Assembly: GCF_009363795.1 (NCBI RefSeq)
Contig: NZ_CP045420.1
Span: 849,001-913,000 of the forward strand
DNA: 64,000 bases
From: Palleronia sp. THAF1
GTDB lineage: Bacteria > Pseudomonadota > Alphaproteobacteria > Rhodobacterales > Rhodobacteraceae
Direction: 5' to 3'
The notes under the pieces are model-generated. The model did not search any database. It was given only the letters and a program-made list of their open reading frames with translations, and was not told the DNA's origin. A program made the translations under genes and the position numbers. Positions within the stretch are counted from its first letter, which is position 1, and each line of letters begins with the position of its first letter. Shown here in pieces: positions 28,173 through 37,823 of the stretch.

Positions 28173-28262
28173 GGAGGTTTGGCAGAGTGGTCGAATGCGG
28201 CGGTCTTGAAAACCGTTGGGCGTGAGAGCGTCCCGTGGGTTCGAATCCCACAGCCTCCGCCA
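28173..28262 (+). tRNA. tRNA-Ser (anticodon UGA); integration site of a genomic island
   Basis: Acceptor GGAGGTT pairs with AGCCTCC, followed by G and encoded CCA (28260-28262). The anticodon loop has TGA (GGTCTTGAAAACC), with a long class II variable arm and T-loop TTCGAAT. The 3' end from 28245 onward is part of the direct repeat that recurs at 36444-36463, so the tRNA remained intact after island insertion. Confidence 0.96.
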
Positions 28263-28264
28263 CT
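28245..28264 (+). repeat. attL, 20-bp direct repeat in the tRNA-Ser 3' end
   Basis: The 20 bases from 28245 to 28264 (T-arm, acceptor 3' strand and CCA plus two bases) are identical to 36444-36463. This is the expected footprint of tyrosine-integrase insertion at a tRNA 3' end. Confidence 0.9.
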
Positions 28265-28321
28265 CAAAGAATACAATCGTAAGTTACTGAATTGATTGAG
28301 TAATTCTATCTCGCAGCAGGC

Positions 28322-28453: not shown

Positions 28454-29413
28454 ATGGATGTGGGTTCACAAGATATGACAGTACTGTCTCAGCCGGAAAC
28501 ATATATGCCCACCTACTTAGTTGGTGACGCTTCGGACCATCTGCGGAATATCTCCGATGAAACTGTTGATTTGATTGTCTCCTCTCCACCTTACAATATC
28601 GGTAAAAGCTACGAGAAGCAGAGCCGACTTACGCTTGAAGAATACCTGCTATGGCAAACTGATGTTTTGAAGGAGCTTGCCCGCACCCTCAAACCAACAG
28701 GTAGCCTATGCTGGCAAGCCGGTACCTACGTAAATGCAGGAAATTTGCTTCCCTTAGACATTCCCTTCTATAGCATAATAAATTCGCTGGGCTTGCAGCT
28801 TCGCAATAGGATCGTTTGGCGCTTCAATTTTGGTCTCAATAGCGATAGGCGCTTTTCCGGAAGATATGAGACAGTTCTGTGGTTCACTAAATCCGACAGG
28901 TACAAATTCAATTTAGATCCTGTGCGTATTCCGCAGTTATATCCGGGCAAGCGACATTCCGCCTCTCATCGGGAAAAATCGGGCAAGCTAAGCGGAAACC
29001 CGAAAGGTAAAAATCCCTCTGACGTTTGGGAGTTCGATGCTAAGAAGGATTTCTTAGAGAATCCAATTTGGGACTTTCCAAATGTCAAAAATAACCATCC
29101 TGAAAAAGAAGATCATCCGTGTCAGTTCCCAATCGAGCTGGCCGAAAGATGCGTTCTAGCGTTTACAGACGAAAATGATCTTGTTCTTGATCCATTTGTT
29201 GGAACAGGATCGACTGCTTTAGCCGCGCAGAAGCAGAAGCGAAGGTCAATTGGGATCGACAAAGAGAAGAGCTTCGTGGATATATCTAAGAGTAGGTCTG
29301 AAAAGATTTGTGACGGCACTCTTCGTATTCGTCCAATCGGAAAGCCGATTGCTAGGCCTTCTCAGAGCGCCAAGGTCGCTCGGATCCCCGCAGAGTGGAA
29401 GGAAATAGAATAA
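28454..29413 (+). CDS. Site-specific DNA methyltransferase, beta-class (N4-cytosine or N6-adenine)
   Basis: 319 aa. The catalytic motif IV SPPYNIGKSYE is at residues 44-54 and the SAM-binding motif I LDPFVGTGSTALAA lies near the C-terminus (about 244-258), so motif order is IV then I (beta class). A target-recognition insert lies between them. SPPY is seen in both N4-cytosine and some N6-adenine enzymes. Start at ATG 28454; a TTG three codons upstream is also in frame. The stop overlaps the next gene (TAATG), so the two are translationally coupled. AT-rich composition marks it as island cargo. No conventional type II endonuclease gene is adjacent; the coupled partner is the candidate. Confidence 0.9.
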   Translation: MDVGSQDMTVLSQPETYMPTYLVGDASDHLRNISDETVDLIVSSPPYNIGKSYEKQSRLTLEEYLLWQTDVLKELARTLKPTGSLCWQAGTYVNAGNLLPLDIPFYSIINSLGLQLRNRIVWRFNFGLNSDRRFSGRYETVLWFTKSDRYKFNLDPVRIPQLYPGKRHSASHREKSGKLSGNPKGKNPSDVWEFDAKKDFLENPIWDFPNVKNNHPEKEDHPCQFPIELAERCVLAFTDENDLVLDPFVGTGSTALAAQKQKRRSIGIDKEKSFVDISKSRSEKICDGTLRIRPIGKPIARPSQSAKVARIPAEWKEIE

Positions 29414-31170
29414 TGGCTTCGACGGCGAGGAAAATTACGACACGAAAGCCAAAGAAGCGAAAGAAGCTATCTGAAGAAGAGCGGAGGCGGAATAGAATTG
29501 AAAGTTCGCATAAGAGAACGGTTCGTACCACCTTTGCAAATGCTGGATTTGTTCGAATTGCATGTGTTTGTGATAAAGAGTTTACATTCAATCATGTTAC
29601 GTCGGATTTCGATGACTGCTTCGTTCACGAAAACATCGTAATTCTGACGGAGTACACGACCTCCGCAGAGAGCAAGGTTGGCGATCATATCAAAGGGAAA
29701 CAGGGTGTCTATAACGAGGTCCTCAAAGATCCTGCAGCCTTTGTAAAATTCTTAAAGCTTACGTTTCCTGAGATTTCCAAGAATCTGCATGGTAGATTCA
29801 AAGATCACCACATGAAAGTGAAGATATTGTACTGCTCTTTGAATTCGGTGAAGCAGCAGCATAAAAGTCTTGTTCCGGATGTGACCTTTTTCGATTACCA
29901 CATAGCAAAGTACTTCGAAACTGTTTCCAAAGCGACGCGATCCTCGTCACGATTTGAGGTTTTGGCCTTTCTCGGCCTTCAGAACTCCGATGTTGGAAAC
30001 GCCGCATTGAGCTTTTCGGGGAACAAGCAATCCCAGAGCTTTCATTGCTCTATACTTCCAGAAACTCATTCTAATTTCGGCCAAGGCTTTAAGGTTGTCT
30101 CTTTTTACGCTAGTCCGTCCGCAATTTTGGAACGGGCCCATGTTTTGAGGCGATATGGTTGGAGAAAGGGTGAAAGCGCCTATCAACGATTAATTAGTGT
30201 CAAGAAAATTCAAGATATTCGAAGGTACTTGCTTGGCGAAAAACGTGTTTTTGTGAATAATATTATCGCAACTTTGCCAGCGGAGACAAAGCTTCTCGAT
30301 GGGGAAGGCGATACCGTTAAGCCTGAGCTCATTCAGGAAACCAAGCCAGGAACCATACAGTTACCGCAAGAATTCAACACTGTAGGATTGATCGACGGTC
30401 AGCATCGGGTCTATTCGTATCATGAGGGTGGACTGAAAGAAGAAATGATTCGGGAGATGCGTGAGCAGCAGAACCTTCTAGTCACAGGAATAATCTTCCC
30501 CAAGGGGATGAGTGAAACCGATAAGCTGAAGTTTGAAGCGAAGTTATTTCTTGAGATAAACTCTAATCAGATGTCTGCCAAGTCAGAGATCAAGCAGGAA
30601 ATCACCAGTATTCTTGATCCATTCTCCCCTGACTCCGTATCCCGAATAGTCATCGGAAAGCTGAATGACTCATCTGGCCCGCTCCAAGATGCTTTTCAGC
30701 AGTTCGATTTTCAGAAAGACAGGATGAAAACGTCGAGCGTTGTCAGCTTTGCATTGAAGCCGCTGGTAGCACCTTCGGGACCGCTCTTTCCGCGGGCGAG
30801 TGGAGAAATTCAGGAAAAGTTCAAGGCCAAGAGCGACGATGGCTTGCGCGACTATACTGACTTCTGCTGTAGCGAGATAAACAAGATATTCTCTGCGGTG
30901 AAAAAGAACTTGGCAGATGAGAAGTGGACTTCTGATCGAAAGGTCGAAGACCGGTTCTTGACCACGAGAAATGTGAACTCAATCATCGCAGCGTTGCGGA
31001 ACTTGGTAAGAGACACAGAGCCGCTCTCATTCGATCAGTATGACAATGCGCTGTCTACGTTCGGAAGTTTCGATAGCAGCAGTTTCGGATCGTCGCGTTA
31101 CAATGCAATGGGTGAGAGTATTTACTTAAAGTTTCTACGTCCAGTGGCCAACTTGGCTCCCCGACGATGA
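29413..31170 (+). CDS. DGQHR-domain protein with a possible N-terminal PD-(D/E)XK-like nuclease region
   Basis: 585 aa. The C-terminal two thirds fits the DGQHR/DndB superfamily: SAYQRLISVKKIQDIRRYLL...FVNNIIATLP (256-289), the signature LIDGQHRVYSYHEG (326-339), and the family-like LFLEINSNQ (378-386). DGQHR domains belong to the ParB/Srx-like fold group and occur in DNA phosphorothioation and deazaguanine modification clusters. The N-terminal 40 residues are very basic. Residues 65-96 (DFDDCFVHENIVILTEYTTS, then K88, K94, K96) have the D...E-x-(T) beta-hairpin spacing of PD-(D/E)XK nucleases, followed by a DHIKGK helix. This nuclease reading is inference. Coupled to the methyltransferase by TAATG. 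Confidence 0.8.
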   Translation: MASTARKITTRKPKKRKKLSEEERRRNRIESSHKRTVRTTFANAGFVRIACVCDKEFTFNHVTSDFDDCFVHENIVILTEYTTSAESKVGDHIKGKQGVYNEVLKDPAAFVKFLKLTFPEISKNLHGRFKDHHMKVKILYCSLNSVKQQHKSLVPDVTFFDYHIAKYFETVSKATRSSSRFEVLAFLGLQNSDVGNAALSFSGNKQSQSFHCSILPETHSNFGQGFKVVSFYASPSAILERAHVLRRYGWRKGESAYQRLISVKKIQDIRRYLLGEKRVFVNNIIATLPAETKLLDGEGDTVKPELIQETKPGTIQLPQEFNTVGLIDGQHRVYSYHEGGLKEEMIREMREQQNLLVTGIIFPKGMSETDKLKFEAKLFLEINSNQMSAKSEIKQEITSILDPFSPDSVSRIVIGKLNDSSGPLQDAFQQFDFQKDRMKTSSVVSFALKPLVAPSGPLFPRASGEIQEKFKAKSDDGLRDYTDFCCSEINKIFSAVKKNLADEKWTSDRKVEDRFLTTRNVNSIIAALRNLVRDTEPLSFDQYDNALSTFGSFDSSSFGSSRYNAMGESIYLKFLRPVANLAPRR

Positions 31171-31241: not shown

Positions 31242-31790
31242 TTATCTAGTGCTGGTGATCAGTCGATACACTGACGTTCTCGCGATACCTAAGCGCTGGG
31301 CGATCTGTGTGGCTCCAAGCCCTTCAGCCTTGAGTCTCTGCACCTCAGCCGCATCAATCTTCGGTTTCCTGCCCTTGTAGACGCCAGCCTTCTTTGCCTT
31401 GGTTATCCCTTCCATTTGACGCTCTTTCCTGAGGTTCGTCTCGAACTCGGAGAAGACCCCAAGCATCTGGAAGAACGCCTTGCCAGCGGCTGTGCTGGTG
31501 TCCACGGGCTGTTCGGTAGCTTTGAGGGCAACTTGGCGCTCCTGAAGGCTCTCAGCGAGTGTCTGAAGGTCTGAGACCGAACGGGCCAGCCTGTCGATCC
31601 GTGTGACGATAAGCTCATCGCCGGGGCGGAGGAAGTCTAGGAGCGTATTGAGCTCGTGGCGTCCCTTTCGGCTAGTGCCACTGACCTTCTCTTCTCTGAT
31701 GATCTCGCATCCAGCCGCCTTCAGGGCTTCTCTCTGAAGCTCCAAGCTCTGTCCGGTGGAAGAGACCCGTGCATATCCATACGTTGCCAT
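31242..31790 (-). CDS. Serine recombinase (resolvase/invertase family)
   Basis: 182 aa. Catalytic Ser10 in YARVSSTGQSLELQ, the conserved arginine block VTRIDRLARSVSDL (about 60-73), helix E region EFETNLRKERQMEGI, and a C-terminal Hin-like HTH (EVQRLKAEGLGATQIAQRLGIARTSVYRLI). Full length and apparently intact. Start at MATYGYARVS. Members resolve cointegrates or invert DNA. No clear invertible segment with matching long inverted repeats was found; a possible site lies in the 640 bases upstream (GTTCCGAA at 31831-31838 and TTCGGAAC at 31906-31913). Confidence 0.92.
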   Translation of the reverse strand: MATYGYARVSSTGQSLELQREALKAAGCEIIREEKVSGTSRKGRHELNTLLDFLRPGDELIVTRIDRLARSVSDLQTLAESLQERQVALKATEQPVDTSTAAGKAFFQMLGVFSEFETNLRKERQMEGITKAKKAGVYKGRKPKIDAAEVQRLKAEGLGATQIAQRLGIARTSVYRLITSTR

Positions 31791-32434
31791 GTCGTTTGTC
31801 CTTTTTGGTTCTAGACCCTGATACAAAGCTGTTCCGAAAACCAAAAACCGACCCTAATGAAACGCGCTGGGCGTCTCACTGGATCGGTTCGTTTGGGTAT
31901 ACTCATTCGGAACACCGTAGAGCGCCTATCGCGCCACTCGGATTTGATGAGGGGGCTTTGGGTCGTTTCAGCGCCGTTTGGAAGGGGGTGGGGGTTTGAG
32001 AAGACCAGTTCAAAAAAGAGGGAGGCTTTACTCTTTTTATTATCCCTTTCGAGCGACCTCCTCAAAAGCTGTAAACGGGCAAAACGCTTGCTTAAACGGT
32101 GTTTAGCATCCGTGAGCGGCTTGGATGGCCCTGAGAGGCTCTTAGCGACTCACTCAGGGCCTTTGTGTGGTGCTTCTTGGGGAGGGTAAGTGATGGGATG
32201 CAAGTGCGCTCATACGGCGCTCTGAGAGCCCCTATGGAGGTGACCCATCTAGGACTTGGTAAGTCAGTGGATACCCTTACGGGGCGCAGTAAGCCTTTTG
32301 GGTGGTCTTGGGGTTTTTCTGTCGTCACCCAGAGAGCCAGAGATACTCATATTTGATATTAGATATATGAGACAAAGGGTATCCTGTGTGGTTCCTTAAG
32401 TTCCCAAGGCACCCAAACCCACCCACAGTCAGCT
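31791..32434. other. Intergenic region between recombinase and palm-motif gene
   Basis: About 640 bases without a convincing gene. Short open frames exist on both strands (for example 31857-32189 plus and 32092-32328 minus) but show no family resemblance or clear ribosome-binding sites. It contains 8-bp inverted copies GTTCCGAA/TTCGGAAC (31831 and 31906) and a nested inverted-repeat structure at 32269-32384. It probably holds the recombinase promoter and res-type site, and possibly a replication origin. Confidence 0.5.
32269..32384. repeat. Nested inverted repeats around an AT-rich palindrome
   Basis: Outer arms GGATACCCTT (32269-32278) and AAGGGTATCC (32375-32384) are perfect 10-bp inverted copies. 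Just inside the right arm, CTCATAT (32346-32352) and ATATGAG (32365-32371) form a second, AT-rich palindrome. The layout resembles an origin or operator region and lies downstream of the palm-motif gene. Confidence 0.4.
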
Positions 32435-33853
32435 TTATACGACTTTCGGAGAAACCCCGATTATGTTCTCGAACGCATTGATGATAGCATCTTTAGCTAC
32501 GGCGAAGGCGGATCTCGGAACAATCAAACTATCATGTACCGGCAAACTAGGAATGCCTTGTTCCCACAGGTTCTGCATAGCCTTCAAGAGCGCCTCAGCT
32601 TCAAGATACTGAACGATACCCCATCCTGTGGTGCTCTCCTCCAACCGTTCGAGAAATGGCAAAGCCTCCACAATGGCTACCCAGACCTCCGTCACCGGAG
32701 GAACCTGAGTCCTATGACCATCGTAACATTCGGCTAGCTCACTCTTCGTCTCTGGCTTCCATCTTTTAGGAGGGCCACACTTACCAAGGGCGACAAGCAT
32801 AGCCGCCTTGATGACCTTCCTCCGATATCCTTCGATTGCGTAAGGATCGCTTGGAAGCGGTTCATTTACTCCGAGAAGGTGGTGGATAATCGTTGGGTGG
32901 CTTGCCTTAACGTCAACCTCAACAGTGGCTTCACCGTCGATTATGATCTTTGCTCTCTCAGAGCTACTCAATTTTTGGTAGCTGTCTGCTCCGAGAGCGA
33001 AGAACCTACCTCCAGTCTTGTAATCGCATTTGCCATCGCCGTTGGCCCGAAAAACTCTTCTAAGTTGGGGGCGGCGGGCAAAGCTGAACGTATGTTGGGA
33101 GAGGTCAAAGTTGAGCCGGTCAACGATCTCTTTATGACGCCTATGTTCAGCCGATGTGCGATGAATTAATATGCCATCGCTGGTCTTGACCACAAGGGAA
33201 TCAAAGTCGCTAGGTTCAACGTCGTAGTGGTCCCAAAGAGTCTGAGGTGTGATATCTGACTCTCGACACAATCGCACCAGCTGTGGAGTCGCTCGGAATC
33301 TCGTAGCTCTTTTTATTATTTGGTCCGTCGGTCCCTCAAAGTCCTCTGTATACTGGAAGCCGGGGCGCTCTTCTATCAAACCCATCACTTGCCAAGTACG
33401 TCGTATCCTTTCGAACAACTTTTTTGTAGTTCTGGTGGGCTCAAAGTTTCGCCCAACGGGTCTAAAGATGAAACCTGCAGACGCGATGTGGCCTTGTCCT
33501 AGTATTAAATCGCATGTGAAAGATTCTATTGTGCGATACAGGCCTTCCCGATCTTTTGGCTTCGGCTTTCGAGATTTTAGTTTATTTTCGAGTTCAAACT
33601 CGATTGTTCTATCAAGCATCATGCTGATAAGTTCTCTGGCGGTATCGCTTACAGCAGTGGCGTTCAGTTCGGCACGGGATGCCTCTTCCAAGACTGAGCC
33701 GATATCCTGCGCATCTATGGTTGTGAAAGGTTGCAGTTGGTCCGCAGTGATAGAGAAAGCCGAACTTGCCTTCGTGTGGCTCCGCGACCAATCGCTGAAG
33801 ATAGTTGCTGTGTCGGGTTTCACATGGCTGAAGTTGGTAATCGTCGGTTGCAT
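32435..33853 (-). CDS. Island-encoded protein with Pol A-like palm motifs, possible replication protein
   Basis: 472 aa, no named family recognised. Three blocks near the C-terminus line up with family A polymerase palm motifs: VEVDVKASHPTIIHHLLG (311-328; motif A-like, Asp314), GYRRKVIKAAMLVALGKCG (342-360; helix with Arg/Lys, motif B-like), and YLEAEALLKAMQNLWEQGIPSLPVHDSLIVP (417-447; the last part like the Pol I VHDEL motif C, with Asp441). The N-terminal 280 residues show no recognised exonuclease domain; GGRFFALGADSYQKLSSSERAKIIIDGE precedes motif A. A role in replicating the excised island is plausible. Inference from motif spacing only. The gene is AT-rich and full length. Confidence 0.6.
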   Translation of the reverse strand: MQPTITNFSHVKPDTATIFSDWSRSHTKASSAFSITADQLQPFTTIDAQDIGSVLEEASRAELNATAVSDTARELISMMLDRTIEFELENKLKSRKPKPKDREGLYRTIESFTCDLILGQGHIASAGFIFRPVGRNFEPTRTTKKLFERIRRTWQVMGLIEERPGFQYTEDFEGPTDQIIKRATRFRATPQLVRLCRESDITPQTLWDHYDVEPSDFDSLVVKTSDGILIHRTSAEHRRHKEIVDRLNFDLSQHTFSFARRPQLRRVFRANGDGKCDYKTGGRFFALGADSYQKLSSSERAKIIIDGEATVEVDVKASHPTIIHHLLGVNEPLPSDPYAIEGYRRKVIKAAMLVALGKCGPPKRWKPETKSELAECYDGHRTQVPPVTEVWVAIVEALPFLERLEESTTGWGIVQYLEAEALLKAMQNLWEQGIPSLPVHDSLIVPRSAFAVAKDAIINAFENIIGVSPKVV

Positions 33854-34445: not shown

Positions 34446-35495
34446 GGCTCTGTTGCACAAATCCACTGCTGAGCGGCCTTCCCCTTTCCCCGGACGGGCT
34501 CATTCTACGGCTTCAGTGACAGGAATGCCGAGCGCGGTGAAGCCGTTCAGGACGGCCACACGGACTTGGAACTCCGCAACCTGCCGGTCGAAGTCGCGCG
34601 CCATGAGGCGCTGACCCAGCAGTTTGACACAGTGCATCTTTGTCTCGACGCGGCTTCGGCGGTGGTAGCCGCTCCATCGTCGCCAGATGGTTCGGCCGAA
34701 GCGTTTCGATGCGCGTAGGGCTTCGTTGCGGGCGGCCGCCCCGGGGCTGTCGGGCTTCCAGGGCTTGCCATTCCTCCGAGGCGGAATGATCGCAGCAGCG
34801 CCACGAGCAGCGATGGCATCGTGGCACTTGCGGGTGTCGAAGGCTCCGTCAGCGGTGACGCTGGCGATCTCCTGATCAGGCGGTATCTGGTCGAGTAGCT
34901 CGGGCAGCATGGGCGCATCGCCCACAACGCTTGTGGTGAACTCGGCGGCGCGGATTTCCAGTGTTTGCTCGTCAATACCGATGTGGATCTTGCGCCAGAC
35001 CCGACGCTTCGTGCCACCGTGCTTGCGTGCATTCCACTCCCCTTCGCCCTCGACCTTGATCCCGGTGCTGTCGATCAAGAGGTGCAGCGGCCCTTGTGAG
35101 CCACGATAGGGTATGTTGACCTTCAGGGACCTCTGGCGCCGCGACAGCGTGCTGAAGTTGGGCACCGCCCAGTTAAGGTCGATCAGCCGCAGGAGGCTTT
35201 CGACGAACCCTGTCGTTTGCCGCAGCGCCATGCCGAACAGCACCTTCATGGTCAGGCAGGTCTGGATCGCGGCATCGCTATAGTCAGGCTGTCGACCGCG
35301 TTTGCCGGTCGGCGCAGCCTCCCAGATCATGGCTGGATCGAACCAGATCGTCAGCGAGCCGCGGCGCTTGAGCGCTGCGTTATAGGAAGGCCAGTTCTTG
35401 GTCTTGTAGGCGGGGGGTGTGGGTCTGCTCATGCCCTCGGGCTACCACGCTGGATTCACAAGATGAATCCCTCACCGGATTTGTGCAACAGAGCC
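34446..35495 (-). mobile_element. Insertion sequence, IS5 family, IS903 group (1050 bp)
   Basis: Perfect 19-bp terminal inverted repeats GGCTCTGTTGCACAAATCC (34446-34464) and its reverse complement (35477-35495), flanked by an exact 9-bp duplication (CCTGATATG). It carries one complete transposase gene on the minus strand. High GC, unlike the island around it. The exact ends and duplications indicate a recent insertion. Confidence 0.95.
34500..35432 (-). CDS. IS5-family (IS903 group) transposase
   Basis: 310 aa, intact. N-terminal part RPTPPAYKTKNWPSYNAALKRRGSLTIWFD is the group hallmark. DDE residues are expected in HLLIDSTGIKVEGEGEW (D about 119), SVTADGAFDTRKCHDAI (D about 193) and RRSRVETKMHCVKLLGQRL (E about 260), all visible. 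The gene fills the IS and disrupts the island integrase. Confidence 0.95.
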   Translation of the reverse strand: MSRPTPPAYKTKNWPSYNAALKRRGSLTIWFDPAMIWEAAPTGKRGRQPDYSDAAIQTCLTMKVLFGMALRQTTGFVESLLRLIDLNWAVPNFSTLSRRQRSLKVNIPYRGSQGPLHLLIDSTGIKVEGEGEWNARKHGGTKRRVWRKIHIGIDEQTLEIRAAEFTTSVVGDAPMLPELLDQIPPDQEIASVTADGAFDTRKCHDAIAARGAAAIIPPRRNGKPWKPDSPGAAARNEALRASKRFGRTIWRRWSGYHRRSRVETKMHCVKLLGQRLMARDFDRQVAEFQVRVAVLNGFTALGIPVTEAVE

Positions 35496-35504
35496 CCTGA
35501 TATG
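35496..35504 (+). repeat. 9-bp target-site duplication, right copy
   Basis: CCTGATATG, same as 34437-34445; marks the right boundary of the IS inside the integrase gene. Confidence 0.95.
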
Positions 35505-36357
35505 TCACTATGTCTTACTGAGCAGATTTCCTCGATTCGCATCCCTGTCCACATTCCAATAGTGATCAGGTCTGCCAACTTTGTATCCCCTTTCTGGGCC
35601 GCCTTGTCCCTGAGTTGTACGACCTCTGCCGGACTAAAGGGTTGTCGTTTCTCTTTCTTATCTGCCTTTGAGCTATTCGCTTTTGTTGGCGCGGCCTCAG
35701 AGAATGGGTCGGTTTCGCTGGACACAAAGTCTTTGCGGGCAAGGAACTTCCAGTACATTCTGCAAGCTGAAAGAATTCTCCGGATGGTACTCGGACTGAG
35801 CCCCTCAGTTTCCTGAAGTTCGTCAACCCAAGCATTTACAGACTTTTTCGTAACGTCTGCCGTCATGGGGAAGCGCTGTGCTAGTCGATTTATGTCTGCT
35901 TTTTGCATCGCCTTCGTTTTCGACGTGTTTGTTGATGTCGATATCCAGTCGGGTAGGGCGATCATCAGGGGGGTGTTCTGTCCTAGTACGATGTCTTGGA
36001 TCAGTCTAACGGAGCTCCCCGTCGCTTCGGTGGCGGCAACGTGAGGAAGTACATCAATCAGGGTCTCCCGCTCTTGGGGCCCAGCACGACGCAAGTCTTC
36101 ACGCCACTCCAGCGCTAGCGATTTGATGCGCTCTAGTTCGTCATCTGAGCCGTAGCGGGCCGCTTCAATAATTTGCTTCCATTTAGCGATGACGGGTCGG
36201 ACCCTGACCTCTGCAGTCGAGAGGCTTTCAGTACGTAAGCTTTCTTTGAATCGGGCCTTACCTATCCGCGTGCGAACATCTTTCGGGACATCAAGCGCTG
36301 CGTACCAACGGCGACGCAGCATTATCAGATATCGTGGGTTTGAGGTTCGAGCCATGT

Positions 36358-36443: not shown

Positions 36444-36463
36444 ATCCCACAGCCTCCGCCACT
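36444..36463 (+). repeat. attR, 20-bp direct repeat
   Basis: Identical to 28245-28264, the 3' end of tRNA-Ser plus two bases. Marks the right end of the genomic island. The 146 bases between it and the next IS remnant hold nothing recognisable. Confidence 0.9.
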
Positions 36464-36982
36464 TAGTCTCAATCCACACTTCTATTCCTTTCATAACTTC
36501 AGTCACTTACGAGTATCTCGTCGAGAGGAGGTCCTGGTTTCTCTTGATCTGCAACCCATTCTGCTACCCATAAGTCTGATTGTGCCATGTTGAACGTCAT
36601 CCTTAGCGGGACTCTGTTGCGCAAATCGGGTGACGGCCAAGGTTCCCCTTTCCCCAGATACACTTATCCCACGGCCTCTGTGACGGGTATGCCAAGCGCG
36701 GTGAATCCGGTCATGACGGCAACACGGAGCTGAAGCTCGGCAACCTGACGGTCAGGGTCTTGTGCCATCAGCTTTTGCCCCAGCAGTTTCATGCAGTGCA
36801 TCTTGGTTTCGGCACGACTTCGGCGGTGGTATCCACTCCATTTCCGCCAAAGCGCCCGGCCGAGGTATTTCGACGCCCGCAGCGCTTCGTTGCGCGCAAT
36901 CGCGCCTGCGGTGTCGGGTTTTAAGGGCTTGGCGTTCTTGCGGAGCGAGACGACGGCATTGGCACCTCGGTCGGCCCCTCTC

Positions 36983-37012
36983 GTGCATGTAAACATGCAC
37001 TGCCGGGCAGTG
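36983..37012. repeat. Double palindrome inserted in the decayed transposase
   Basis: GTGCATGTAAACATGCAC (36983-37000) overlaps CACTGCCGGGCAGTG (36998-37012); each is a palindrome. The intact IS copy has no counterpart here. The second palindrome is the reverse complement of the unit found at 37281-37341. Confidence 0.75.
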
Positions 37013-37281
37013 GATGGCATCATGGTACTTGCGCGTATCGTAGGCGCCGGCGGCGTTCGCAGGCTCACCGCTGCCGATCTCCTGCTCGGGCGGGATCTGA
37101 TTCAGCAGTTCTGGCAGAATGGGCGCATCACCAATGTCGCTGCTGGTGAACTCGACTGCCCGGATTTCCAGTGTCTTTTCGTAGATACCGAGGTGAACCT
37201 TGCCACACGCGGCGTTTCGAGCCACCGTGCTTGCGCGCATTCCACTCGCCTTCGCCCTCTACCTTTATCCCAGTGCTGTCC

Positions 37282-37341
37282 ACTGCCCGGCAGTGCATCA
37301 CGCAGTGATGTACTGCCCGGCAGTGCATCACGCAGTGATGT
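37282..37341 (+). repeat. 30-bp tandem repeat, two perfect copies, each made of two palindromes
   Basis: Unit 1 is 37282-37311 and unit 2 is 37312-37341, identical. Each unit contains ACTGCCCGGCAGT and CATCACGCAGTGATG, both able to fold as hairpins. The block interrupts the decayed transposase between sequence matching GCTGTC and GATCA of the intact copy. Confidence 0.85.
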
Positions 37342-37823
37342 CACGGGAGGGGATCAGCAGGTGTAGCGGCCCCTCAGAACCACGATACGGAATGTTCACG
37401 GCGAGAGACTTCTGGCGGCGTGAAAGCGTGCTGAAATCCGGCACCGACCAGCCCAATCCACTCAATCGCAGGAGACTTTCCACGAAGCCGGTCGTCTGCC
37501 TGAGCGCCATGCCGAACAGCACCTTCATCGTCAGGCAGGGTTTGATCGCGGCGTCACTATAGATGGGCTGTCGGCCCCGCTTGCCGGTCGGCTTGGCCTC
37601 CCACGTCATCTCGGGATCGAACCAGATCGTCAGCGAAGTCGCGAAGCGACGCGCTTCAGCGCTTCGTTATAGGCCCGCCAATTCTTGATCTTGTAAGTCG
37701 GGGGTGTTGGTCTGCTCATGCCATCCAGTAATCATGCTGGATTCACCAAATGAAGCCCTTACCCGATTTGCGCAACAGAGCCCTTGATCAAGCTCGATCT
37801 TTAACGATTCAGGCCACTTCGAC

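Follow-up and report, generated by a model that had tools for sequence, protein, structure and literature searches.

In the genome of Palleronia sp. THAF1 we analysed a stretch of 64,000 nucleotides (the window), in which two overlapping genes encode a beta-class DNA amino-methyltransferase and a protein of 585 residues with a DGQHR domain. This pair is probably a two-gene, type II-like restriction-modification (R-M) system, in which the methyltransferase (MTase) would be the modification subunit (M) and the DGQHR protein a restriction subunit (R) of a novel kind, made of a PD-(D/E)XK-like nuclease and a DGQHR module. We observed directly the pairing of the two genes, their conservation and the exchange of R with BglII/BstYI-family enzymes beside the same class of MTase, and the fold of the N-terminus was seen at the level of a model.

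Recurrence of the pair and exchange of its second gene

A preliminary description of the window, made from the sequence alone, had reported a beta-class MTase whose gene overlaps that of a 585-residue partner by TAATG, and the frames, the codon positions and the motif order bear this out. Both open reading frames (ORFs) are free of stop codons, the TAA of the first (29411-29413) and the ATG of the second (29413-29415) form the overlap, and motif IV (SPPY) is followed by motif I (DPFVGTG), which is the beta order. The MTase matched the Pfam family N6_N4_Mtase (PF01555) with 195.3 bits, and its best matches in the PDB were two chains labelled just 'Methyltransferase', followed by M.RsrI and then by chains labelled DNA cytosine-N4 methyltransferase. 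The SPPY motif is typical of N4-cytosine MTases and suggests that this enzyme possibly makes N4-methylcytosine (m4C).

Scans of genome and viral contigs with the window protein as the only query gave no relatives. The relatives found with tblastn cover 93% of the protein and lie on Rhizobium and Phyllobacterium plasmids and in the Akkermansia phage Chantilly, with an MTase adjoining each. A profile of four sequences (analysis A1) then gave 66 genome loci and 7 viral loci, and these counts are lower bounds, with two degenerate patterns used per profile scan. Analysis A3 left out eight of the 73 loci: four were truncated (L026, L062, L072, L074), one had a split frame (L043), one a long alternative start (L057) and two were copies (L079 and L080, of L024 and L020 respectively). 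We could place 65 of the 66 genome loci, which belong to nine phyla, one of them archaeal, not counting an unplaced archaeon. The archaeal members are on contigs of metagenome-assembled genomes (L070:7956-9716, Nanoarchaeota; L074:1-1494, unplaced). When genomes of the same class as Palleronia were searched with the protein, 3 of 385 matched, namely its own genome and two with partial matches over the DGQHR part only, and therefore the system is patchy.

Over the 995,469 bases of the 66 genome loci, a beta-class MTase profile matched 67 frames. Taking longest-frame starts, an MTase was within 3 kb of the DGQHR gene in 64 of these loci, within 60 bp in 60 and overlapping it in 26, and the two loci without an MTase (L072, L074) both begin at a contig edge. 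The MTase was upstream on the same strand in 59 cases, downstream on the same strand in two, downstream on the opposite strand in two and upstream on the opposite strand in one. The linkage is thus kept though the gene order varies, and the pairing is near-obligate. The (S/D)PP(Y/F) motif is visible in all the adjacent MTases listed except L019, which has a split frame, and L026.

We also examined the flanking proteins, one on each side of the pair (118 picked minus the two longest, on the upstream side of L011 and L034). The remaining 116 matched 130 Pfam families, and among the first 25 families listed none occurred in more than four of them; therefore, the pair looks like a self-contained cassette. 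With PADLOC the same proteins gave scattered families, none in more than two among the first 25 of 203 listed, and no general defence-island setting was shown. A third conserved gene was rejected as far as seen, since no family was common among the flanking proteins scanned. A survey for the same pair in other genomes was one of the checks proposed in the preliminary description, and the pair indeed recurs across the nine phyla, in loci fetched by the DGQHR protein alone and without a common third neighbour. This recurrence exceeds chance.

The mobile carriers of the family are viral contigs, a phage, plasmids and a tRNA island. The 60 rows of the DGQHR tree that have a phylum require 14 phylum changes, where 8 would be the minimum; this fits horizontal spread, short of proof. 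The DGQHR proteins with this N-terminus are a coherent and apparently undescribed family.

Some loci had other contents. Two plasmids, of Novosphingobium (L008:5422-11920) and Agrobacterium (L009:1639-12027), encode two DGQHR proteins without this N-terminus, next to ATP-binding and radical-SAM proteins and, in the latter, a PIN-like protein; no methyltransferase is among the annotated neighbours, and this is possibly the context of another modification system. Three Bacteroidota loci (L028:4423-10455, L032:4067-10495, L054:4002-10487) have a larger gene set, consisting of a protein of about 549 aa, another of about 290-300 aa, the MTase, the DGQHR protein and one of about 250 aa, with the MTase first in L028. 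The protein of about 549 aa matched the GHKL-type HATPase_c_3 in L028 and REase_II of PADLOC in L032, and the two smaller ones had no match in Pfam (L028) or PADLOC (L032). Proteins of similar size are found on both sides of the pair in L025.

The strongest new evidence for the R-M reading is the exchange of the gene beside the MTase. A profile of 11 MTases of class (i), the class of the window MTase (analysis A5), found 48 viral loci. Within 1 kb of the MTase, 5 of them had a DGQHR gene, 23 a restriction endonuclease (REase) of the BglII/BstYI family and 19 neither, and one was unscored; after removing three copies, the 45 distinct MTases were distributed as 5, 22, 17 and 1. The profile for the BglII type was grown from the REase of Spirosoma. 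Ten partner ORFs were compared with Pfam, and nine (8 viral, 1 plasmid) matched PF09195, the tenth being L107, scored as neither, which matched nothing. Among the eight plasmid MTases fetched, three had a BglII-type partner, identified by its own annotation in Acinetobacter (L144) and Sphingobium (L146) and by the profile in Paracoccus (L145). Furthermore, a plasmid record of Spirosoma sp. KUDC1026 (L007:4371-6468) holds consecutively an MTase, a BglII-type REase (PF09195, 66.8 bits) and the N-terminus of a DGQHR protein, whose frame ends at the record end and is not continued at the opposite end. This locus is possibly an intermediate in the exchange of the restriction subunit. The MTase class of about 420 aa, surveyed in a similar way, yielded just 7 viral loci, which favour neither side; 2 of these had been found before as DGQHR loci.

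The MTase tree requires at least three steps between DGQHR and BglII partners. The window MTase belongs to a starred clade of 20 rows, all DGQHR-partnered, and L064 and L083 (DGQHR) group with L007 (both partners) inside the BglII-rich part, on unstarred branches of 84-89. The tree leaves out L019 (in two pieces), L151 and the copies L079, L080, L082, L096-L098, L111, L112, L123, L124 and L141, the copies among the MTase rows having been confirmed as identical sequences. Over the target-recognition domain (TRD), the window MTase and the nearest BglII-partnered one agree at 58.5% (55.4% over the whole MTase), and L083 and L007 at 90.2%. As judged by alignment, the target-recognition region is alike in MTases of both partner types. 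Regarding the two options left by the preliminary description, a restriction-modification system or a modification-dependent sensor, the replacement of R by BglII/BstYI-family enzymes at the same place favours the first.

The exchange also bears on the target. The excerpts of PMC10287943 and PMC10734518 give AGATCT or RGATCY as the typical sites of BglII/BstYI-family enzymes, and it is because of these sites that we predict, by analogy, that the target of the system is probably a GATC-core site (RGATCY or AGATCT). The two BglII-family systems published there make N6-methyladenine (m6A), as far as those excerpts go. M.Nph3I was not among the best 40 of 153 phage matches of the window MTase, and therefore its m6A cannot be simply transferred to the latter.

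Architecture of the DGQHR protein

The first 200 residues of the window protein had no family match in Pfam, NCBIfam or PADLOC. When residues 22-203 were modelled alone with AlphaFold, the predicted local distance difference test (pLDDT) was 96.5 and the predicted template modelling score (pTM) 0.91. The model has a helix (21-43), strands (57-82), a second helix (86-105) and another strand (135-142), with D67 immediately ahead of one strand and E80 close to the end of the next. The PD-(D/E)XK core is alpha-beta-beta-beta-alpha-beta, with acidic residues on adjacent strands, and the predicted model matches it in the order of helices and strands and in the placement of the acids. The 50 PDB rows listed by Foldseek included R2 retrotransposon proteins, which carry a restriction-like endonuclease (RLE), BspD6I, Cdn1/Can2/Card1, XisH, cap-snatching endonucleases and EcoT38I; we take all 50 to be of the PD-(D/E)XK superfamily, except perhaps one XPB-Bax1 row.

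The residues involved are highly conserved. The preliminary description had read residues 65-96 as having the order expected of a PD-(D/E)XK core, and the residues that it cited are indeed there, from D65 to S84 plus K88, K94 and K96. D67, N74, E80 and T82 were identical in all 75 rows that have a residue at these positions, H92 was so in 76 of 76 and K96 in 74 of 76, in an alignment of 78 rows that includes the copies L079, L080 and L082 (identical to L006). The two exceptions at K96 are the archaeal L070 and L074, both with T there, and L070 has lysines on either side. On the model, K96 on the following helix would be a migrated lysine. The N-terminus thus appears to resemble the PD-(D/E)XK superfamily, without a claim of strict motif membership, and we regard this as a coherent fold assignment, short of proof, from which nuclease activity is predicted.

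The rest of the protein is easier to name. The NCBIfam model TIGR03187 matched residues 252-531 with 69.1 bits (cut-off 58.85) and, at E <= 0.01, all 66 family members; the PADLOC model of DpdB matched the 66 members at the same threshold (best 6.6e-16). The Pfam DndB model remained under its cut-off of 29.1 with 21.1 bits, and the equivalog models covered residues 223-387 only, with 26.5 bits against a cut-off of 300 for DpdB and 23.1 against 450 for DndB. Beyond the DGQHR, DndB, DpdB and ParB models, the four libraries gave stray matches in one or two of the 66 members only. Pfam gave no match to DUF262 or DUF1524/HNH in the window protein or in the tally of the 66 members, and none to PF09195 in the window protein. 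The QR, DGQHR and FxxxN motifs, all invariant in this family, are named in the excerpt of PMC4619093 as common to DGQHR and GmrS/DUF262 domains. The DGQHR part is the best conserved, its mean pairwise identity being 47%, while the N-terminal and C-terminal parts reach 32% and 35%, respectively.

The whole protein, modelled with 66 sequences, gave a pLDDT of 91.7 and a pTM of 0.87. Its structure search returned the same nucleases as the N-terminus, ParB-N domains and some chance matches; in the viral library it returned uncharacterised phage proteins, the GmrSD N-terminal domain and ParB-like proteins, the latter two being expected because of the DGQHR half. For the DGQHR gene of the Phyllobacterium plasmid (L005:7881-9707), the PLSDB resistance prediction is 'lmrP MFS efflux pump', which is evidently false.

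Since DndB and DpdB are the named proteins closest to the DGQHR half, and DndB is described in the excerpt of PMC10853773 as an ATP-dependent negative regulator, the protein might instead be a DndB-like regulator or accessory of the MTase, its N-terminal fold being a DNA-binding relic and not a nuclease. A relic would hardly keep D67, N74, E80, T82 and H92 in all 75-76 rows, nor does a regulator agree with restriction enzymes taking its place beside the MTase, and we find this explanation hardly credible.

Weighing of the readings and proposed mechanism

Several observations weigh against the R-M reading. Regarding the pairing, the MTase profile was built up in rounds from these very loci. In four of the 66 genome loci (L028, L043, L058, L060) the MTase is 735-2,576 bp off the scored frame; L043 is among them owing to a broken DGQHR frame, and L058 and L060 have as their nearest MTase one of the DPPF type, at 775 and 1,128 bp, which may not be cognate. 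Regarding the exchange, neither partner was found in the 19 of 48 viral loci counted above, four of the eight plasmid MTases had no recognised partner and one (a 37%-identical MTase) had a ScaI-family REase, and the starred branches of the MTase tree force just two changes of the DGQHR label. Regarding the nuclease, the PD-(D/E)XK match that the preliminary description had proposed as a check was obtained by structure comparison, where the matches are weak (best E 1.0e-3, TM-score <= 0.44 in the 50 rows listed), and not by sequence profiles, which do not recognise the N-terminus (one chance-level PDB match, E 0.42). The lysine expected two residues past the second acid is also absent, T82 being there in all 75 rows. 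Finally, the partner MTase changes class at least 12 times on the DGQHR tree, where the classes by motif were i in 26 cases, ii in 29, iii in 5 and DPP in 6 (the class of L019 was set by hand, its MTase frame being split), and the distances of R and M correlate modestly, with a Mantel rho of 0.27-0.33 that 0 of 500 permutations reached.

The repeated change of class means either that several MTase classes share targets or that R lacks full specificity, and therefore two other explanations stay alive. The first is a modification-dependent sensor like SspE, in which the DGQHR module would read the host methyl mark and license the nuclease against invading DNA, remaining idle without the mark; frequent changes of MTase class would be easier for an R that recognises a mark and not a fixed sequence. 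According to the excerpt of PMC11662687, SspE needs phosphorothioate marks and DndI uses them to release self DNA, both having DUF262 domains, with DGQQR in DndI, and that of PMC4619093 describes the DGQHR domain as akin to the DUF262 of GmrSD. However, ordinary BglII-family REases occupy the same slot, the Spirosoma record holds such an enzyme and a DGQHR protein behind one MTase, and R.Nph3I, a characterised member of that family, is blocked, and not activated, by the methylation that its MTase makes (excerpt of PMC10734518). We consider the sensor unlikely.

The second is a complex like those of type I or III, in which R would have no target recognition of its own and would be positioned by the TRD of the MTase, so that specificity travels with the MTase. 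This would account for R being otherwise conserved through the changes of class, with its DGQHR part best conserved, and the overlapping frames in 26 of the 66 genome loci suggest a tight stoichiometry. Nevertheless, Spirosoma retains an independent BglII-type REase beside R, and no helicase or specificity gene recurs among the flanking proteins scanned; such a complex seems quite improbable.

In the restriction-modification system that we favour, M would mark the target sites of the host, most likely a BglII/BstYI-type hexamer with a GATC core, probably as N4-methylcytosine. R would be a nuclease fused to a sensor, with residues 22-203 nuclease-like and residues from about 205 to 585 forming a ParB/Srx-type DGQHR module plus a helical C-terminus. 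The active site would include D67 and E80, with K96 supplied by the following helix and T82 in the usual position of the lysine. We expect the DGQHR module to bind nucleotide and DNA and to gate the nuclease. Unmarked DNA would be cut by R and marked host DNA spared. Nuclease activity, target and type of methylation are what we infer here.

Type II cleavage is independent of nucleoside triphosphate (NTP). The DGQHR module renders the use of NTP plausible, which would depart from classical type II, and the gating is proposed by likeness to SspE, DndI and GmrSD. In the excerpt of PMC11662687, the DUF262 of DndI carries DGQQR, the mark raises its ATPase activity, this activity is lost in the R87A variant of the motif, and hydrolysis of ATP frees the protein from self DNA; the phosphorothioate marks are required there for the nickase activity of SspE. 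There is some chance, and a small one, that the pair represents a restriction class in its own right, gated by NTP. Its DGQHR module would then read the methylation state set by whichever beta-class MTase (m4C or m6A) accompanies R, and one conserved nuclease could swap MTases, as in the at least 12 class changes, with a specificity coming from the MTase or shared with it and no dedicated recognition domain.

Genomic setting and related systems

The coordinates of the features are given in Table 1. The preliminary description had placed the pair on a tRNA-Ser island, and this placement holds. An exact 20-bp repeat, made of the last 18 bases of the tRNA plus two more, bounds an island of about 8.2 kb, and contiguous similarity to related genomes stops at the 3'-end of the tRNA, at 28262-28265 (4 genomes fetched of 39 with a match), one further match of 39 bp being near the transposase copies. 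The G+C content per 1 kb is 0.44-0.56 at 28-37 kb, against 0.64-0.68 leftward; to the right of the island it is 0.60-0.65 at 37-41 kb and 0.56 again at 41-42 kb. Beyond the tRNA, a resolvase match was seen in the loci L094 (46% identity) and L092 (28%), and therefore the site looks like a hotspot.

Table 1. Features of the gene pair and of the island in the window
Feature	Position	Strand	Evidence
Beta-class DNA amino-methyltransferase (predicted M), 319 aa	28454..29413	+	open frame; PF01555 195.3 bits; family and TRD alignment
MTase catalytic motif IV, S44-P-P-Y47	28583..28594	+	frame and family alignment
DGQHR protein (predicted R), 585 aa	29413..31170	+	open frame; TIGR03187 above cut-off; AlphaFold pLDDT 91.7, pTM 0.87
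Predicted nuclease domain at the N-terminus, PD-(D/E)XK-like (residues 22-203)	29476..30021	+	pLDDT 96.5; weak Foldseek matches
Predicted nuclease active site, D67..N74..E80-x-T82..H92..K96	29611..29700	+	family alignment
Y257-Q258-R259 (QR pair of DGQHR/DUF262 fold)	30181..30189	+	alignment 77/77
DGQHR motif, residues 328-332	30394..30408	+	alignment 77/77
FxxxN motif, F379..N383	30547..30561	+	alignment 76/76
tRNA-Ser(TGA), integration site of the island	28173..28262	+	tRNA call; similarity break in related genomes
attL-like copy of the 20-bp repeat (tRNA 3'-end)	28245..28264	+	exact repeat
attR-like copy of the 20-bp repeat	36444..36463	+	exact repeat
Resolvase-type serine recombinase on the island	31242..31844	-	PF00239 136.2 bits
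Tyrosine-integrase-like ORF, 44/172 catalytic-domain model positions matched	35456..36355	-	adjoins attR, abuts transposase copy

To call the pair the only clear cargo of the island, as was done initially, is fair but incomplete, as there are also the resolvase, a 472-aa ORF, the truncated integrase and the transposase copies. The 472-aa ORF (32435-33853, minus strand) had no Pfam or PADLOC match and has partial distant relatives (28-29%) on Sphingomonas and Thioclava plasmids. The two transposase copies (34479-35501 and 36643-37788) are diverged, with blocks 75-87% identical, and lie around the right end of the island, the truncated integrase abutting the first of them.

Whole-genome searches gave no match to DndC or DpdA and, for DndD, a fragment of 21.3 bits only (cut-off 245.85), the remaining dnd and dpd genes, DndE included, lying outside the search. 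The earlier statement that dnd and dpd genes are lacking thus stands genome-wide for DndC, DpdA and DndD. The DGQHR model had one match in the genome, the window protein. Membership in a Dnd system was rejected on the sub-threshold DndB and DndD scores and the lack of DndC, and membership in a Dpd system on the DpdB score and the lack of DpdA.

Among the known systems, we compared the pair with four groups. i) R-M systems of the BglII/BstYI family (R.Nph3I/M.Nph3I of phage NrS-3 and the RMC of A. baumannii A118) are also small cassettes of M and R, and MTases of the window class pair with REases of this family in viral contigs and plasmids. However, the window R is a PD-(D/E)XK-like/DGQHR fusion of 585 aa without a PF09195 match, and the two published systems make m6A (excerpts of PMC10287943 and PMC10734518), whereas the window MTase has SPPY; these systems are set apart by description and not by alignment. 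ii) GmrSD, SspE and DndI also join a ParB/Srx-like DGQ(H/Q)R domain to a nuclease in a single chain, with the QR, DGQxR and FxxxN motifs. The window protein differs in having DGQHR and not DGQQR, an N-terminal PD-(D/E)XK-like nuclease and not a C-terminal HNH, and a base methyltransferase as partner instead of phosphorothioation or the sensing of glucosylated hydroxymethylcytosine (glc-HMC). It is therefore outside the DUF262-HNH group, though it may work like its members. iii) DndB and DpdB belong to the same DGQHR domain family, but the window protein scores far below their equivalog cut-offs and its genome has no match to DndC or DpdA. iv) Can2/Cdn1/Card1, R.BspD6I and the R2 RLE have the closest solved folds to residues 22-203, by weak matches; unlike in them, the lysine of the window protein is on the next helix and a threonine is at the K position, and no sequence similarity was detected.

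In the literature searched, as judged by title and the beginning of the abstract (subscription papers, bioRxiv and REBASE being outside the search) we found no description of a restriction pair made of an MTase and a DGQHR protein. We would class the pair as an R-M system whose restriction subunit is of a new type, and a prior notice elsewhere is possible. There is also an annotation gap, as in none of the 66 members does any of the four libraries cover the N-terminal domain with a model or label the protein a restriction enzyme.

To our knowledge, DGQHR domains have been known until now as helpers or regulators in Dnd and Dpd systems and for their kinship with type IV and phosphorothioate nucleases. 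If our reading is true, they would also serve as the restriction subunit of a small and widespread methylation-based R-M system with an immediately testable predicted target, RGATCY or AGATCT. It would then also provide an easily cloned two-gene model for ParB/Srx NTPase-like modules that gate nucleases on a modification signal.

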